From Histomonas meleagridis (taxonomy: Eukaryota > Parabasalia > Tritrichomonadida > Dientamoebidae): DNA of 64,000 nt. The translations under genes were made by a program, and so were the position numbers. This document shows positions 9,652 through 64,000 of this stretch, piece after piece. The notes below the pieces were generated by a model. It saw only the letters and a list, made by a program, of their open reading frames with translations, did no database searches and was not told the DNA's origin. Numbering within the stretch: position 1 is the first letter of the stretch; each line of letters opens with the position of its first letter. Location of the stretch: contig WSYJ01000164.1 in NCBI GenBank assembly GCA_020186115.1, positions 124,001 to 188,000 on the forward strand, in the 5' to 3' direction.

Positions 9652-12225
9652 ATGAACTTCGAATTCCTGATGGATCCTTCCAAAATTGTAACAAGAGAAA
9701 ACGAGCAATCTATTCAACAACCAGTTCAACAACTTCAAATTAAAACTGAATATATTGATAATAAAGATACTAATGATACAAATTCTAAGCCGCTCGATGA
9801 ATCTGACACAGACATTCTTACATTCGCAAAATTATGTGACATGTCAAATCAAGCGAATAATCTTTTTCCTCATCTTGATAAACAAACAACTCCTATAAAC
9901 AAACAAGCCAACGCCAACAAACCCAAAGATACTCAAAAACAATCTCCAAATACAAGCTCAACTGAAAATAAGAAAAAGTTAACCATTAAACAAATACCAA
10001 CCAATGAGCCAATTAATAACAAACAGAAACCAACTCAAAAGCAAACATCAAACTCTAACGATGCAAAGGGTAAGAACAAACAAACTCCATCCAAAGATCA
10101 ATCAACGAATACCAAACAGAAATCATCACAAAAATCATCGCAAAACGAAAGCAAAAACAAGGCATCTAATAAACAGCCTTCGCCCAACGAGCAAGCGAGC
10201 AATTCTAAATCCAAATCTCCCCAAAAACAAATTCCAAATCAAAATGATAACAAAGGCAAAACTTCTAACAAGCAAACTAAAGAACAACAAAACACACCCA
10301 AATCCAAAGGATCGCCAAAAGCAAATCCAAATCCATCTGAAGCTAAACCCAAGCCAACCAATAATCAGCAAAGCGCAAAAGAACAAAACAGCAACAAATC
10401 CAAATCACCACAAAAACAGACACAAAACGCAAATCAAAATGAGTCTAAACCAAACAATCAACAACAAATCGCAAAAGATCAAATCAATAATAAATCCAAA
10501 TCACAAAACGCAAACCAAAATGAGCCTAAGCCAACCAATCAACAAAACGCAAAAGAACAAAACAGCAACAAATCCAAATCGCCACAAAAACAATCACAAA
10601 ATGCAAACCAAAATGAGCCCAAACCAACCAATCAGCAACAAATCGCAAAAGATCAAATCAGTAACAAATCCAAATCACCACAAAACCAGACACAAGATGT
10701 ACTTCCAAATGATCAACAAACTGAACAACAAAACAACACCCCACCCGAAATCACCAACGATAACATGGTAACGCAAGAGCAGCCGCCAACGCAAACGCGC
10801 GAGCCTCCAAACACATTCAACAACATCCAGTACATATTTAACGGCTTCCTCGAAGCTTCGTTTGATGTCACCTCATCACTCTTAACGGTCAACTGCATTC
10901 AATACCAAATTCCTGCCGAATATCAAATGACGACGTTTACAGCTCTTGGCCCAGGCACGTTATTGTTTGGTAATTATGAAGGCATTTATTCCTTTAATTA
11001 TGAAAACATGATTTTAACCTTTGTTTATTCGATAAGTAATGTCAGAAGTATTATATGTGATCAATTATCATCATCACGTTTCTTTATATTAGCATCAGAT
11101 ACATTATATGCAATGCAAATATCGACAACAGGACAAATATATATTCGATCACTTTATGATTCCGTAGATAACTATGATATCTCAAATGAATATAAGTTAA
11201 TCATATCGAAAGGAGTTGTGTCATGTTACACACGTCATGACTTTGCATTCACTCCAATTTTCTCGAAAGAAATTGATGAATATACCAAAGTTTATTGTGA
11301 TGACAATTATTATTATGAATTTTCGAAAGGAGTTTTATCACAATATATAATTTCAAAACGAAATCGGAACATTACATTAATTAAAAAGTTGGAAAACATT
11401 GATTTAGTATTTAGTAGTGAAGAAATTGTCGCTTTTTCAGGTAACAAAATTTATATTAATGATTCAGAGTTTATGTACCATGTAAACAATGGAAATTATG
11501 AGTCACAATTCATCTCAAAATTTGCTATCGTCAACAATGGGATTCTATGCATTTGGGATGTTTACAATAACGTCACTTTGCATGATGTAAACAAGTCAAA
11601 CCAAGCTGTGACATGTGATATGATACGGGACATCCTAAAAACCGCCGAGGATTCAATTAACCAATCATTACAAATCTTACGAAATAATAATAATTCTAAT
11701 TCTAATGCAATTGGGTATATTAATTCATTCACTAAAAAGATGGAAGAACAAGTTTCTTTGTTAGAAAATAAAGTGTCGATGATGATCAAAAGATCGAAAA
11801 ATGTCGAAGTATTAATATGTGATTTACCACAAAAATATGTGAACATGTTTAATGAAGGGAAAGTCGAAAATAGTTTTCGATTCGCATGTCAAAAATCGAT
11901 TGAACATCTTTTGTATCTATGTAAAGATAATCGATTCGAAAGATCATTAAGTACATTATCGACACAAACATTACTTGAAATCGCTGAAGTTTTCATCGAT
12001 AACATGACGAATTATAGCGATGAAATAATTCCGTTTTTGTTGAATCTTTTGACGAAATTCGACCCGAAAAATATAATCGTGAACAAGAAAATGAACGAAA
12101 TGTCAGAGGAGCTGCTCAGCGCAACTTTGGAATTGTTCCAGAAGACGCCGACGTCGTCGCCAATGTACATGAACCTGAGAAGGCTGTCGCACATCGCGAT
12201 ATCTTATAATTCGCTGTCGAGTTAA
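9652..12225 (+). CDS. Large protein with Q/N/K/S/P-rich repeat half and folded C-terminal half (857 aa)
   Basis: The frame is open from 9496, but that part is antisense to Dim1 and begins at TTG. The ATG at 9652 follows an AACGTT box and a TCATA Inr-like site and is the best start. Residues ~20-370 are of low complexity (Gln, Asn, Lys, Ser, Pro), with imperfect tandem repeats centred on NKSKSPQKQ..QNANQNE.KP. Residues ~380-720 look like beta-propeller strands (YEGIYSFNYENMILTFVY, 'RFFILASDTLYAM'). The last ~200 residues look alpha-helical (LLENKVSMMIKRSKNVEVLI; 'FRFACQKSIEHLLYLC'). This N-terminal-propeller-plus-helices layout resembles decapping or coat scaffolds such as EDC4, but I cannot assign it. 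It may form condensates because of the prion-like N-terminus. Confidence 0.75.
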   Translation: MNFEFLMDPSKIVTRENEQSIQQPVQQLQIKTEYIDNKDTNDTNSKPLDESDTDILTFAKLCDMSNQANNLFPHLDKQTTPINKQANANKPKDTQKQSPNTSSTENKKKLTIKQIPTNEPINNKQKPTQKQTSNSNDAKGKNKQTPSKDQSTNTKQKSSQKSSQNESKNKASNKQPSPNEQASNSKSKSPQKQIPNQNDNKGKTSNKQTKEQQNTPKSKGSPKANPNPSEAKPKPTNNQQSAKEQNSNKSKSPQKQTQNANQNESKPNNQQQIAKDQINNKSKSQNANQNEPKPTNQQNAKEQNSNKSKSPQKQSQNANQNEPKPTNQQQIAKDQISNKSKSPQNQTQDVLPNDQQTEQQNNTPPEITNDNMVTQEQPPTQTREPPNTFNNIQYIFNGFLEASFDVTSSLLTVNCIQYQIPAEYQMTTFTALGPGTLLFGNYEGIYSFNYENMILTFVYSISNVRSIICDQLSSSRFFILASDTLYAMQISTTGQIYIRSLYDSVDNYDISNEYKLIISKGVVSCYTRHDFAFTPIFSKEIDEYTKVYCDDNYYYEFSKGVLSQYIISKRNRNITLIKKLENIDLVFSSEEIVAFSGNKIYINDSEFMYHVNNGNYESQFISKFAIVNNGILCIWDVYNNVTLHDVNKSNQAVTCDMIRDILKTAEDSINQSLQILRNNNNSNSNAIGYINSFTKKMEEQVSLLENKVSMMIKRSKNVEVLICDLPQKYVNMFNEGKVENSFRFACQKSIEHLLYLCKDNRFERSLSTLSTQTLLEIAEVFIDNMTNYSDEIIPFLLNLLTKFDPKNIIVNKKMNEMSEELLSATLELFQKTPTSSPMYMNLRRLSHIAISYNSLSS
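10363..10698 (+). repeat. Coding tandem repeat, ~80-90 bp units, Q/N/K/S-rich
   Basis: Four imperfect copies encode roughly NQQ-(Q/S)-(I)AK(E/D)Q-(N/I)-(S/N)NKSKS(PQKQ)-QNANQNE-KP(T). Copies differ by in-frame gain or loss of short blocks such as SPQKQTQ. The coding strand is strikingly A-rich and almost free of T, unlike flanking genes. Confidence 0.8.
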
Positions 12226-22070: not shown

Positions 22071-24112
22071 ATGTTTCCTACCACAAACACTCGACGTAAA
22101 AATTTGAACAATTTATCGATCTGCTTTAAATTACTAGTTGAGCTTGAGAAAACTATATTTAGTTTAACTGAAGAAAACTTCCAGGCGTCAGTTAAAAAAT
22201 TATTGGGATTTTTTGATCTATATTTTCCCTACACATTTAATACCATTATAAGTAACATCGTTTATAATGCATTTTCATCACTAAAACAAGTATTTGATAT
22301 TTACATAAGTTTTTTAAAAGAACTTCAATCTAAAGAAGAAGAAATTAATCAAAATATCTTTAAACTAATTTCAATTTTTATCAAACGTATATCTACAAAG
22401 AACACACAAGAATCATATTATTTAATAGAGAAACTAATTGAACAAAATTTAATTGATAAAAATATTACTAAAAATATTACTAAAAATATTAATTCAAAAT
22501 ATTTTGCTCATTATAAAGCAAAAGAAGAAAACCAAAACATGGCATTTGGGTCTAATAGAAATGATCCAATAGAAAAATTCTTTAGAGATCATTATGAAGA
22601 ACTTTCAAAGAATGATTGGGAGCTCCATAAGAAGTATATTAAAGAAGGACATAATCCAAATGAAATTGCGCAAATAATTCAAAATGATGAAATAGAAAAA
22701 CTTCAAGAAATATCATCGCAAAATAATTTTGATTAGAATCAAACAATTGAACCAGCACTTTATGAAATGTATTCATTTATTAATCAAAGAAATGTTACAC
22801 TAATTGATTATGCAGCTTTTTTTTCTTCAGTTAAATGTTTTAAATTTTTACTGATAAATGGTGCTAAAGTAAAGGAAAGTAAATATGCAATTGCAGGTGG
22901 AAATTTAGAGATAATTCATTTATGTGAGCAAAATCATTCATCATTTAAAGGTGCATATGAAACAGCAATTGAATTCCATCAAAATGATATCTTTAAATAT
23001 ATTTATGAAAACAAATTAGGGAAAATACAATCAATGCCAAAAATGTCAGAAGATAAAGCAAATTATTTTGTAAGTTTTTGTATAAAAAAAGATAATTATG
23101 AAATTTTAGCATTTTTGGAAGAAAAAGGAATTAATGTTAATGCTGATAATATAAATGAATCAGCAATAAATGGAAATTTATATCTCGTTAAATATTTCCT
23201 TCAAAATAATCAAATTCCAAAAAATATTTTGCCATTTGCTTCAGAATCAGGAAATGTTGAACTTGTGAAATATATTTTAGATAAAGAAGGAATTGATATT
23301 AATGCAAAAAATATTCATTTGAATAATTTGGAATATGTTTTAATAATTTGGAATATGTTTTAATAATTTTATATATGTTTTAATAATTTGGAATATGTTT
23401 TAATAATTTGGAATATGTTTTAATAATTTGAAACAGCACTTCATATAGCAGTTAGAAATAATAATATAGAAATAGTAAAATTACTTTTAGATAAAGGAAT
23501 TGATGTTAATGCAAAAAACATTCATTTGAATAATTTTATATATGTTTTAATAATTTGAAATATGTTTTAATAATTTGGAATATGTTTTAATAATTTGAAA
23601 CAGCACTTTATGAAGCAGTTAGAAAAAATAATATAGAAATAGTGAAATTACTTTTAGATAAAGAAGAAATTGATGTTAATGAAAAAAATATTCATTTGAA
23701 TAATTTATAATATGTTTTAATAATTTGATATATTTTTTAATAATTTTATATATGTTTTAATAATTTGAAACAGCACTTCATATAGCAGTTGAAAATAATA
23801 ATATCGAAATAGTAAAATTAATTTTAGATAAAGTAATTGACGCTAATACAAAAACTATTCATTTGAATAATTTGGAATATGTTTTAATCATTTGAAACAG
23901 CACTTCATATAGCAGTTAGAAATAATAATATCGAAATAGTAAAATTACTTTTAGATAAAGGAATTGATGTTAATGCAAAATATATTAATTTGAATAACTT
24001 GGAATATGTTTTAATAGTTTTGGATTTATTTTAATAATATTTTGCTGCAATTCGAATTGCACAACAAAAAGGTTACACAGAAATAGTAAATTTAATTCGC
24101 AAAAAATTATAA
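22071..24112 (+). pseudogene. DUF3447-type ankyrin-repeat gene, interrupted
   Basis: The ATG at 22071 (MFPTTNTRRKNLNN) starts a 221-codon frame typical of the trichomonad DUF3447/ankyrin family N-terminus. It ends at TAG 22734-22736, directly after SSQNNFD. The same frame continues at once with NQTIEPALYEMYSFIN and runs to 23363 through further ankyrin helices (LIDYAAFFSSVKCFKFLL; 'AIAGGNLEIIHLCEQN'). So a single in-frame TAG cuts the gene. From 23316 on, each ankyrin unit is separated by AT-rich spacers with stops. The last unit, FAAIRIAQQKGYTEIVNLIR, ends with TAA at 24110-24112. As it stands only the first 221 codons would be translated. Whether the spacers are removed from RNA is unknown. 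Confidence 0.7.
23316..24040 (+). repeat. Ankyrin units alternating with quantised AT-rich spacers (14 + 20n nt)
   Basis: Spacers lie at 23316-23429 (114 nt), 23523-23596 (74), 23693-23766 (74), 23860-23893 (34) and 23987-24040 (54). Each is a 14-nt leader CATTTGAATAATTT (last copy AATTTGAATAACTT) followed by n copies of a 20-nt unit, consensus GGAATATGTTTTAATAATTT, with n = 5, 3, 3, 1, 2. Between them are intact ankyrin units of 31-32 codons at 23430-23522, 23597-23692, 23767-23859 and 23894-23986, each reading ETAL...IEIVKL(L/I)LDK..D.N.K.I. The unit boundaries are the same each time: after the codon ATT and before GAA. Confidence 0.92.
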
Positions 24113-26219: not shown

Positions 26220-28237
26220 CAGTCCCGTACAGCAAAAAATGTTCATTGTCCATAAAAAATGTCCACGAAGTTAACGTGCGAAAAAATTAACGTTCGTCGG
26301 CCAGTAATTTTGGCCATCGGACATAAAAAGCTGGCCAACGTATTTTTCCACTTTTACGGTTTTGTCACGAGACAGAAAAAAATATCCATCGGACATAAAA
26401 CTGTCCATTGGCCAGAAAAATTGTCCATTTCCTAAAAAGTGCTAAATCGAAATGTAAAGATTTGTCGTGAAATAACTGATTGAAATAGAATTTTATAAAT
26501 TCAATGCATGATTTCTCAAAGGAATATAAAAATAACAATGAATATTAATTTTATAATCATTTTTGCATTTATAAAAAACATTCTTTGCAAAGGAATGAAT
26601 TCAATGTATATTTGGCCATCGAAATCATTACAACTTTCTATTTTATTCCTTAGCATAGATAAGCTTTTAATATGTAAAATAATTATATGCATACGTTTTA
26701 TTTAATATGTATTTTATATTATATATGATTTTCAATGATAATATTATAATGATTAAACAAATTTATATCAAAAAACGAAAAATACAGCATTGTAATATTT
26801 TATTTAAACAAAAATATTACAGGAGAAAAAAATAAGTATTACAGTGCCGGCCACAAAAATTTGATCATTGGAAGCTAAAAATTGTCCACTTTTTCACACA
26901 AAAATATCTGATCGTCTTTTTGGCATTAAAGCTGTCCGTTGGACATTTAAAATTGTCCACTTTTTAACGTTTTATAAACGTTTTCTGCCAGGACATTAAT
27001 TTTTATCCATCGGTCATCAAAAATTGTCCACTTTTAACCGTCGGAGACCAAAAAAATGTCATATTACTCCAACAAAAATTAAGTACAAAAAATTAATGTA
27101 TTTTAGGTATTGAGAGCCACCCTTGCTGAGCAGAATTGCAAAAAGGTCTGTTTTTAAAATTACAAGAATCTTTTTTAGCAAACAAAATTTTAATGTAATA
27201 AAATATGATATAAAATATAAATTTCAGCATTATTAATGATCTTATTTGAGATTCAATGTGATTAGATGTCAATCATAAAAATTCGAAAGAAAGAGAGGAA
27301 AAAGCAAAAAATTAATTAGGAGAGAGACAAAAGTAGATTTTCAAGCAAAATTTAAAGCTTATACTAATGTATAAAATATATATAATAAATCAACTGTTTT
27401 AATTTTTTCGCACTTAATTTTTATTGGAGTAATATGACATTTTTTTGGTCTCCGACGGTTAAAAGTGGACAATTTTTAATGACCGATGGATAAAAATTAA
27501 TGTCCTGGCAGAAAACGTTTATAAAACGTTAAAAAGTGGACAATTTTAAATGTCCAACGGACAGCTTTAACGCCTAAAAGACGATCAAAAATTTTTGCCA
27601 AAAAAGTGGACAATTTCTTAATGTCCAATGGACGGTTTTAATGCCAAAAAGACGATCAGATATTTTTGTGTGAAAAAGTGGACAATTTTTAGCTTCCAAT
27701 GGTCAAATTTTTGTGGCCGGCACTGTAGCTGTACCGACAAAACTTTAAATGAATTTATAGAGTAAAAAATTGATTACACAAATGTAAAATCTGATTTTAG
27801 AATAAAGACGATCATAAATATCACAAATTTATGAAATTGACTGTTAAAACAAAAGAATCGATTCCATTTTGTAAGACAAATTTTAAATAAAAAACATACT
27901 GTTTTCACAATGAAAAATAATATGTAAAATGCTTCAAATTAAACACTTTTTTGGCTTTGAACATTTTTTCTGGCCAATGGACAGTTTTATGTCCGATGGA
28001 TATTTTTTTCTGTCTCGTGACAAAACCGTAAAAGTGGAAAAATACGTTGGCCAGCTTTTTATGTCCGATGGCCAAAATTACTGGCCGACGAACGTTAATT
28101 TTTTCGCACGTTAACTTTGTGGACATTTTTTATGGCCGATGGCCAAAATTACTGGCCGACGAACGTTTACTTATTATGGCGGTTTTTTCTGTGGACATTT
28201 TTTATGGACAATGGACATTTTTTCCTGTCCGGGACTG
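26220..28237. mobile_element. Outer Tc1/mariner-like non-autonomous element with long TIRs (2018 bp)
   Basis: Begins CAGTCCCGTACAGC and ends with the complement (...CCTGTCCGGGACTG), flanked on both sides by TA (26218-26219 and 28238-28239), the target duplication of Tc1/mariner elements. The inverted arms are about 220 bp (left) and 280 bp (right). The right arm is longer because of a duplicated segment (28067-28096 repeated at 28138-28167, offset 71 bp). Motifs such as GGCCATCGGACATAAAA recur inside. No transposase frame is present. Another element (26842-27725) is inserted within it. Its right end lies 37 bp before the ATG of the fucosyltransferase-like gene. Confidence 0.88.
26842..27725. 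mobile_element. Inner Tc1-like non-autonomous element nested in the outer one (884 bp)
   Basis: Starts CAGTGCCGGCCACAAAAATT and ends with its inverted copy; TA flanks at 26840-26841 and 27726-27727. The start resembles the classic Tc1 end (CAGTGCTGGCC). The arms are ~265 bp (left) and ~335 bp (right). Again the right arm is longer through a diverged duplication with a 71-bp offset (AAAAGACGATCA at 27576 and 27647). TTGTCCACTTTTT recurs in both arms. The ~280-bp centre has no open frame. It must have inserted after the outer element. Confidence 0.88.
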
Positions 28238-63443: not shown

Positions 63444-64000
63444 TCAAATTGTCATCTTTTTATGAAATAGTTTAACTATTTCTGTATAACCTTTTGAAGA
63501 TGCCATCATAAGTGCTGTTTGAAATAATTTAAATCATTTCCAAATATTATTATGAAATATCAAATTTTTGAAACAAATTTTAAATAAAACAAATAAATAT
63601 TTTTAGCATTAATATCAATTCCTTCTTGTTCAAGAAGTAATTTAACGATTTCTATGTTACCATTTTCAGATGCTAATATAAGTGCTGCATAGAATAATTT
63701 AAATAATTTCCAAATATTATTTTGAATTTTCAAATTATTAAAATAAATTTGAAATAAAACAAATAAATATCTTTAGCATTAATATCAATTCCTTTTTGTT
63801 CAAGAAGTAATTTAACTATTTCTATATTACCTTTTGAAGATGCAATCATAAGTGCTGTTTGAAATAATATAAATAATTTCCAAATATTATTTTAAAATGC
63901 CAAATTATTAAAACATGCTTTAAATAAAACAAATAAATACCTTTAGCATTAACATCAATTCCTTCTTGTTCAAGAAGTAATTTAACGATTTCTATTTTAC
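63444..64000 (-). pseudogene. 3' end of a second ankyrin-repeat array with spacers; runs off the window
   Basis: Reading leftward: a partial unit (64000-63936, IEIVKLLLEQEGIDVNAKGI), unit 63861-63766 (QTALMIASSKGNIEIVKLLL...), unit 63691-63596 (YAALILASENGNIEIVKLLL...) and the last unit, QTALMMASSKGYTEIVKLFH, ending in TGA at 63446-63444. The units are intact, but each is followed by a 74-nt AT-rich spacer with stops. The end of the array matches the end of the left locus (KGYTEIV..L..KK), so they are family members. I call it a pseudogene only provisionally: if the spacers are removed from RNA, it would be a working gene. The 5' part lies beyond the window. Confidence 0.7.
63522..63935 (-). 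repeat. Ankyrin/spacer composite array, period 170 bp
   Basis: Three spacers at 63522-63595, 63692-63765 and 63862-63935 are each exactly 74 nt. Each reads (coding strand) TATTTGTTTTATTT, the same 14-nt leader in all three, followed by three 20-nt blocks; the last block is GGAAATTATTTAAATTATTT with small changes. With 96-nt ankyrin units the composite period is exactly 170 bp. The first 20-nt block of the spacer at 63862-63935 contains ATGTTTTAATAATTT, identical to the 20-nt unit of the left locus. Confidence 0.92.

Follow-up and report, generated by a model that had tools for sequence, protein, structure and literature searches.

Rows of 17-nt A/T-rich elements alternating with codon-like triplets in ankyrin genes of Histomonas meleagridis: candidates for a new class of intervening sequence

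The spacers that interrupt the ankyrin repeats of a gene family in Histomonas meleagridis consist of A/T-rich elements of 17 nt with one codon between each two, and on the evidence of their sequence these elements are probably removed from the pre-mRNA in the manner of introns, with the single codons joined. A broader proposal seems to us possible rather than probable, namely that they are eukaryotic intervening sequences of a new class, A/T-rich, 17 nt in length and devoid of GT..AG. They would be recognised through the sequence and length of the element itself, would number about ten thousand in a genome called intron-poor and would isolate single codons, so that a 20-bp minisatellite would have become a frame-safe device by which the ankyrin loop gains and loses one residue at a time. 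The window is the whole stretch of 64,000 nt that was analysed (positions 124,001 to 188,000 of contig WSYJ01000164.1; C99:124001-188000), and genome searches covered 43,276,120 bases in 121 contigs. The window holds two ankyrin arrays, the first of type A and the second of type B, with the following features.

22071..23312, plus strand: 5' coding part of the ankyrin gene, with the N-terminal domain of the PF11929/DUF3447-ankyrin family and the first ankyrin repeats, element-free; open reading at 22071-22736 and 22767-23363, in one frame
23313..23429, plus strand: six 17-nt elements and five single codons, GGA GGA TAT GGA GGA
23313-23329, 23333-23349, 23353-23369, 23373-23389, 23393-23409 and 23413-23429, plus strand: the six elements of this first spacer
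23430..23519, plus strand: ankyrin unit ETALHIAVRNNNIEIVKLLLDKGIDVNAKN
23520..23596, plus strand: four 17-nt elements and three single codons, TAT GAA GGA
23597..23689, plus strand: ankyrin unit ETALYEAVRKNNIEIVKLLLDKEEIDVNEKN
23690..23766, plus strand: four 17-nt elements and three single codons, ATA GAT TAT
23767..23856, plus strand: ankyrin unit ETALHIAVENNNIEIVKLILDKVIDANTKT
23857..23893, plus strand: two 17-nt elements and one single codon, GGA
23894..23983, plus strand: ankyrin unit ETALHIAVRNNNIEIVKLLLDKGIDVNAKY
23984..24040, plus strand: three 17-nt elements and two single codons, GGA TGG
24041..24112, plus strand: C-terminal ankyrin unit FAAIRIAQQKGYTEIVNLIRKKL, then a stop; other arrays close with similar C-terminal units
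63444-64000, minus strand: type B array as a whole, the window's second ankyrin array
63862..63938, minus strand: four 17-nt elements, single codons AAA GGC GGA
63769..63861, minus strand: ankyrin unit
63692..63768, minus strand: four 17-nt elements, single codons CAA GAA GGA
63599..63691, minus strand: ankyrin unit
63522..63598, minus strand: four 17-nt elements, single codons AAA GAT GGA
63444..63521, minus strand: final ankyrin unit, 25 open codons up to the stop

The window also carries other repeats: at 10360-10720 there is a 174-bp coding tandem repeat inside an open frame of 885 residues rich in Q, N, K and P, and at 27531-27702 and 28056-28214 there are two 71-bp tandem repeats of related sequence (TGGACA/TGGCCA runs), which lie upstream of and inside an open frame of 507 residues.

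A preliminary description of this DNA had noted five spacers of 114, 74, 74, 34 and 54 nt, and these are borne out, with starts at 23316, 23523, 23693, 23860 and 23987. Each had been taken as a 14-mer followed by five, three, three, one and two copies of GGAATATGTTTTAATAATTT; the lengths agree, but the 20-mers are not all of this sequence, and most of the differences fall in the first three bases, which in the window read GGA, TAT, GAA, ATA, GAT or TGG. The ATT that had been assigned to each unit as its last codon fits better as the start of an element, with ATT and the 14-mer together making the first 17-mer. Each 20-mer is one codon and one 17-mer, and the spacer runs element, codon, element, codon to a last element and the next unit. 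ATT plus 14+20n nt thus comprises 17(n+1) nt of elements and 3n nt of codons, and this layout accounts for both the 20-nt length step and the tolerance of any n; with the 17(n+1) nt skipped and the 3n nt kept, the frame would stay intact whatever the value of n. What had been offered as a single intervening sequence is better described as n+1 elements with n single codons between them, and among the explanations put forward for it the evidence favours removal at the RNA level. Other parsings were tried and rejected. One intron per spacer, with borders ATT^ and ^GAA, leaves two ankyrin residues missing and the 20-nt step and the codon-like triplets unexplained, and no shift of GT..AG borders inside or beside the spacer yields a frame-keeping pair, nor is any element itself GT..AG. 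A translated frameshift region does not fit gap lengths that take all three values modulo 3, a variety of phase that the preliminary description had rightly pointed out.

Across the genome the exact 20-mer has 492 matches (357 forward, 135 reverse), and its reversed control has none. A first sample comprised the window and 20 stretches around the first of these matches, and the later addition of 15 stretches with type B arrays brought the total to 36. Between neighbouring units (8 < gap < 600) the gap was 14 mod 20 in 100 of 112 cases in the first sample and in 253 of 308 in all 36 stretches, both samples having been chosen by matches to the repeat and not at random. In type A arrays, the kind found in the host gene here, n ranges from 1 to 22, and the last 17 bases of the 20-mer are near-constant while the first three are strongly variable. 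Type B arrays have mostly gaps of 74 nt (14+20x3) with four different 17-mers, and their triplets at positions 15-17 (x1) and 35-37 (x2) are hypervariable, while in 93 of 103 repeats positions 55-57 are a Gly codon, GGA or a synonym.

The triplets supply what the ankyrin units lack. Translated alone, the units are ankyrin repeats short of x-x-G in the motif D-x-x-G-x-T-A-L. With the elements skipped, the triplets of type B land by position count on D-x1-x2-G-x-T-A-L, the 103 repeats behind the Gly count being non-redundant; x1 is mostly K, N or D, and x2 is often Y, D or N. Once the triplets are counted as codons, the repeats have the 33-34 residues and the D-x-x-G-x-T-A-L motif of an ankyrin repeat, again by position count. 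The genome also has an element-free ankyrin gene (an open frame of 984 codons), in which the matching positions read, for example, NAKNKRGSTPL and NLKDDNGFTAL.

We judged the codon nature of the triplets by counts of stops, frameshifts and codon usage, and the genome-wide counts required exact element flanks on both sides. Genome-wide there are 3 stops in 3948 triplets (type A, type B x2 and the type B Gly site combined), and the 23 triplets of the window (14 on the plus strand, 9 on the minus strand) include none. Among the 1992 type A triplets (reversed control, 3), the T-purine-purine class numbers 65 and is made up of 62 TGG, 2 TGA, 1 TAA and no TAG. The type A triplets with G or C in third position are likewise 65 of 1992, and they are exclusively TGG (62) and ATG (3), which are the only codons for Trp and Met and have no synonym ending in A or T; of the 32 triplets that end in G or C, precisely these two are present, a pick that chance would make once in 496. 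At the type B x2 site all 55 T-purine-purine triplets among 1044 are TGG and there are no stops, and at the Gly site none of the 37 triplets without initial G (of 912) begins with T, hence stops are again absent. In the 458 sampled type A triplets there are 0 stops as against 62 expected under independence of positions, and TGG is the one triplet among them that does not end in A or T. Since copies produced by duplication are not independent, columns were shuffled among distinct or non-redundant rows: the 84 distinct type A 20-mers have 0 stops where 11.8 are expected (0 of 20000 column shuffles), and type B has 0 where 4.7 are expected at x1 (P 0.0012) and 0 where 7.4 are expected at x2 (0 of 5000), the Gly site, with 0 as against 0.9, being too poor in expected stops to inform. 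That many triplets are such copies nevertheless counts against RNA removal. So does the absence of GGG, AAG and GAG from the 1992 type A triplets, which indicates that the variety among them comes from a limited set of alleles and not from free mutation. Third bases are G or C in 1.3% of type A units and 3.4% of type B units, as against 21% in 13 window genes, so that triplets ending only in A or T fit the codon habits of this ankyrin family, but equally a recent small allele pool. The triplets of type B sit between two different elements, and their variety therefore arose with the elements already in place. Taken together, these sequence patterns indicate that reading of the triplets as codons, with the 17-mers skipped, goes on or did so until recently.

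The words "until recently" point to a rival reading, in which the arrays form a decaying satellite or pseudogene family whose expression has ceased, with the codon-like triplets left as the relic of an earlier reading. Some copies are indeed broken, which also counts against RNA removal. The N-terminal part of the host gene has an in-frame TAG at 22734-22736, where an element-free paralogue (L029/L035), in whose homologues PF11929 was found, reads FDFNQ; this copy of the gene may be dead, even if the family is alive. Stops occur inside 3 of 85 type A units and in 4 type B units, although 85 of 86 type A units and 219 of 233 type B units have a length divisible by three, unit matches are 93 or 96 nt long in 338 of 357 cases, and arrays often close with a short C-terminal unit that bears a stop. 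In addition, third positions of conserved codons in type B units vary no more than first and second positions, which argues that homogenisation, and not only purifying selection, keeps the units alike, and the recency of this homogenisation would suit a relic. Set against these points are the rarity of stops genome-wide, the position of x1 and x2 between two different elements, so that their diversity was not copied from a selected neighbouring codon by tandem duplication, and a second organism with the same layout, described below. We consider loss of expression unlikely, and the decaying satellite envisaged in the preliminary description is not favoured as a general explanation, the triplets avoiding stops across the genome.

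Variants in spacer length are largely of kinds that keep the frame. Gaps of 57 nt (74-17) parse in 12 of 13 cases, from six loci with several near-identical copies, as a spacer from which one entire 17-mer is missing while the codons on its two sides are intact; gap variants of 54, 57 and 60 nt also keep a frame, and some 77-nt gaps contain a six-base exon of two codons, such as TGG ACT. Only 26 of 308 gaps fit neither 14+20n nor these compatible lengths, and 12 of the 26 are in L047 (C72:129000-135600), a type B array of 37 units with many 18-nt elements and several 97-nt units, each arising by one extra A in an A run. These extra bases represent decay or sequencing error; the frameshifting of this array adds to the case for a relic, and its 18-nt elements and 97-nt units to the broken copies that weigh against RNA removal. 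If the elements are skipped, slippage by 20 bp would add or remove exactly one residue of the ankyrin loop without a frameshift, and a unit length not divisible by three would become harmless. Precise loss of 17 nt between copies is also what excision at the DNA level in another life stage would leave behind. The assembly itself contains the elements, and we know of no parabasalid stage with a second, processed genome, and this possibility appears extremely slight.

The elements themselves carry no known splice signal pair, which counts against RNA removal. The 1181 parsed elements, taken from 14+20n gaps with very G+C-rich ones excluded, have an initial A in 1138 cases, a terminal TTT in 1093 and A at position 14 in 1137, at 6.3% G+C. 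The preliminary description had found no shared GT..AG pair and no trichomonad-type branch motif, and both statements hold in this set: GT stands at the start of 21 elements, AG at the end of 3 and both in 0 of 1181, while CTAAC occurs in 0 of 1181 and CTAA in 5. A genome search for the trichomonad-intron motif ACTAACACAYAG gave 53 matches as against 14 for the reversed pattern. The 3' motif of trichomonad introns, as ACTAACACATAG, occurs in tandem rows of about 825 bp on contigs C9, C53, C55 and C84; the rows form a repeated gene family that may or may not have a canonical intron. In the window and L009-L028, 484 of 518 type A-like 17-mers (at most 2 mismatches) have recognised units on both sides; the other 34 lack a unit on one side or on both, the latter in 4 cases. 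As far as sampled, then, the elements are confined to ankyrin arrays. A frame-handoff scan for such elements outside these arrays, covering the window and 26 loci, did not single out 17 nt: this length had 35 cases, several of them in the known arrays, while 14 nt and 20 nt, which share its frame, had 36 and 39. This result, too, counts against RNA removal. The element pattern had 0 matches in viral_contigs and 0 in genome_contigs. The genome perhaps contains some ten thousand elements, a figure extrapolated as 1044/(71/152) x 4 + 1992/(285/458) from a sample picked by similarity. The annotation of the same strain has 573 introns, and introns are described as scarce in that report (PMC8529796). 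A literature search of open-licence papers, with most subscription papers outside its reach, returned no description of such elements, and a term search of PMC6679479 gave no match.

All parsed elements fall exactly between codons, and their length of 17 is kept more strictly than their sequence. Together with the lack of splice signals, these properties would equally suit a translational bypass in which the mRNA retains the elements and the ribosome passes over each 17-mer to land on the next codon, and the position between codons therefore weighs against RNA removal. In the cases of ribosomal bypass known to us, the same tRNA re-pairs on a matched landing codon. Here the codons before and after the elements vary freely and independently of each other in kind, so that such re-pairing is not a requirement and recognition would have to reside in the element. 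Up to 23 consecutive hops would be needed, the elements appear from their sequence to have no evident structure, and a uniform phase 0 would also result if a single ancestral element had given rise to all others by 20-nt duplication. A bypass is in our estimation an improbable explanation. Removal at the RNA level, which we favour, would require no matched codons and would be consistent with the precise loss of single elements.

The same kind of layout may be present in a second organism. A read-through query from L030 led to proteins from ENA contigs with EIVKILVEQ-type repeats and linkers such as K-VYFNNLIFQNNIWNLFKLF-E-TAL. Proteins P0121-P0180 and P0241-P0257 of this organism appear to bear the same kind of elements, and P0139 and P0153 look like further variants. 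The related protein P0012 is at best 51% identical over its length to this genome (other listed matches reach 57% over partial length), and so does not come from this H. meleagridis strain. In the linkers of ILVEQ type, the stretch after x1 is 19 residues long in 54 of 55 parsed cases (the pattern allowed 18-20), and with a looser pattern 20 residues (x1+19) are found in 63 of 97 segments, a length spectrum that is biased, as such databases take in only open frames from ORF callers. Back-translated by analogy with the H. meleagridis elements, 19 residues may correspond to 17+3+17+3+17 nt; element 1 would be missing, a situation also seen in the 57-nt gaps. Read in this way, W, which requires GG at the Gly site, is present in 52 of 55 linkers, and of 54 residue pairs at x2 there are 7 FG (TGG or CGG), 0 FE (TGA or CGA), 0 FR and 1 FK (CAA or TAA). 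The test at x2 is free of the bias, since the read-through frame would stay open even with a stop triplet at that site. No element-free form of these repeats was among the 307 proteins returned, and thus no spliced product was found by this route.

These linkers could instead mean that translation runs through the elements and yields a hydrophobic loop, at least wherever the elements add up to a multiple of three nucleotides, the three elements of the relative (51 nt) being open and giving a conserved stretch of 19 residues, and the 54-, 57- and 60-nt variants of H. meleagridis keeping a frame. Yet 178 of 308 gaps in H. meleagridis are 74 nt (2 mod 3), type A elements contain TAA TAA in one frame, the variable triplet of the relative straddles two read-through codons in a way that fits codons of the skipped frame, and the openness of the relative's proteins reflects a list limited by ORF callers to open frames. 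Translation of the elements is thus a poor prospect.

In the explanation that we prefer, removal from RNA, each spacer would be a row of 17-nt A/T-rich intervening elements with one codon between each two; the elements would be excised from the pre-mRNA by a machinery that recognises the element itself, through its 5' A, 3' ATTT and length of 17, and the single codons, once joined, would become part of the loop in each ankyrin repeat. The precise loss of single elements would be expected from recombination with cDNA. A row of 23 elements with 3-nt exons between them (n=22) would be hard for a spliceosome, which counts against this model. If it is correct, a parabasalid cell can recognise 17-nt sequences that lack GT..AG, excise them and join single-codon exons, for which we know of no splicing model. 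It would be a new form of gene interruption that shows the lower size limits of intron and exon and raises the question of which machinery is responsible, and gene predictions for H. meleagridis, with their 573 annotated introns, would miss a large ankyrin family. If it is the ribosome that skips the elements, no larger set of bypass sites would be known.

Several known systems share part of these features. Ciliate internal eliminated sequences have TA at both ends, while the elements here end in A and TTT. The repeat is not a coding minisatellite with a unit that is a multiple of three, its unit being 20 nt. Programmed ribosomal bypassing, in phage T4 gene 60 and the byps of Magnusiomyces mitochondria, skips non-coding stretches of the reading frame between codons; here, in contrast, there are no matched take-off and landing codons, the genes are nuclear and many skips would follow in a row. 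The DUF3447/ankyrin homologues of Tritrichomonas foetus and T. musculus share the N-terminal domain and the ankyrin repeats, and are listed as long open proteins in which this search saw no elements. In the tunicate Fritillaria most introns of one lineage are outside GT/AG, according to PMC13326754, and the present elements are far shorter, of fixed length and restricted, as far as sampled, to ankyrin genes. Microexons of 3-15 nt are flanked by introns with preserved splice signals, according to PMC13149111. By length and apparent codon nature the triplets would resemble them, with in-frame exons of 3 nt and 6 nt, but here up to 22 would stand in a row between signal-free 17-mers. At 17 nt the elements lie within the range of ultrashort introns (about 15-25 nt), which include those of Stentor coeruleus at 15 nt and Bigelowiella natans at 18 nt, as cited in PMC12316389; they differ from these in lacking GT..AG, in their fixed length and in forming rows split by one codon. 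PMC12316389 also describes spliceosomal introns of Trichomonas vaginalis and T. stableri that are T-rich and as short as 23 nt, with GT..AG and a fused ACTAAC-type branch and 3' motif, 63 of them in a genome. The elements depart from these introns in their 17-nt length, in the complete absence of GT..AG and CTAAC, in their thousands of copies and in their single-codon exons, but resemble them in being very short, T-rich and hosted by a parabasalid, and by our own comparison the 5' ATATGT of the type A element resembles the GTATGT of the Trichomonas introns with the first G changed.
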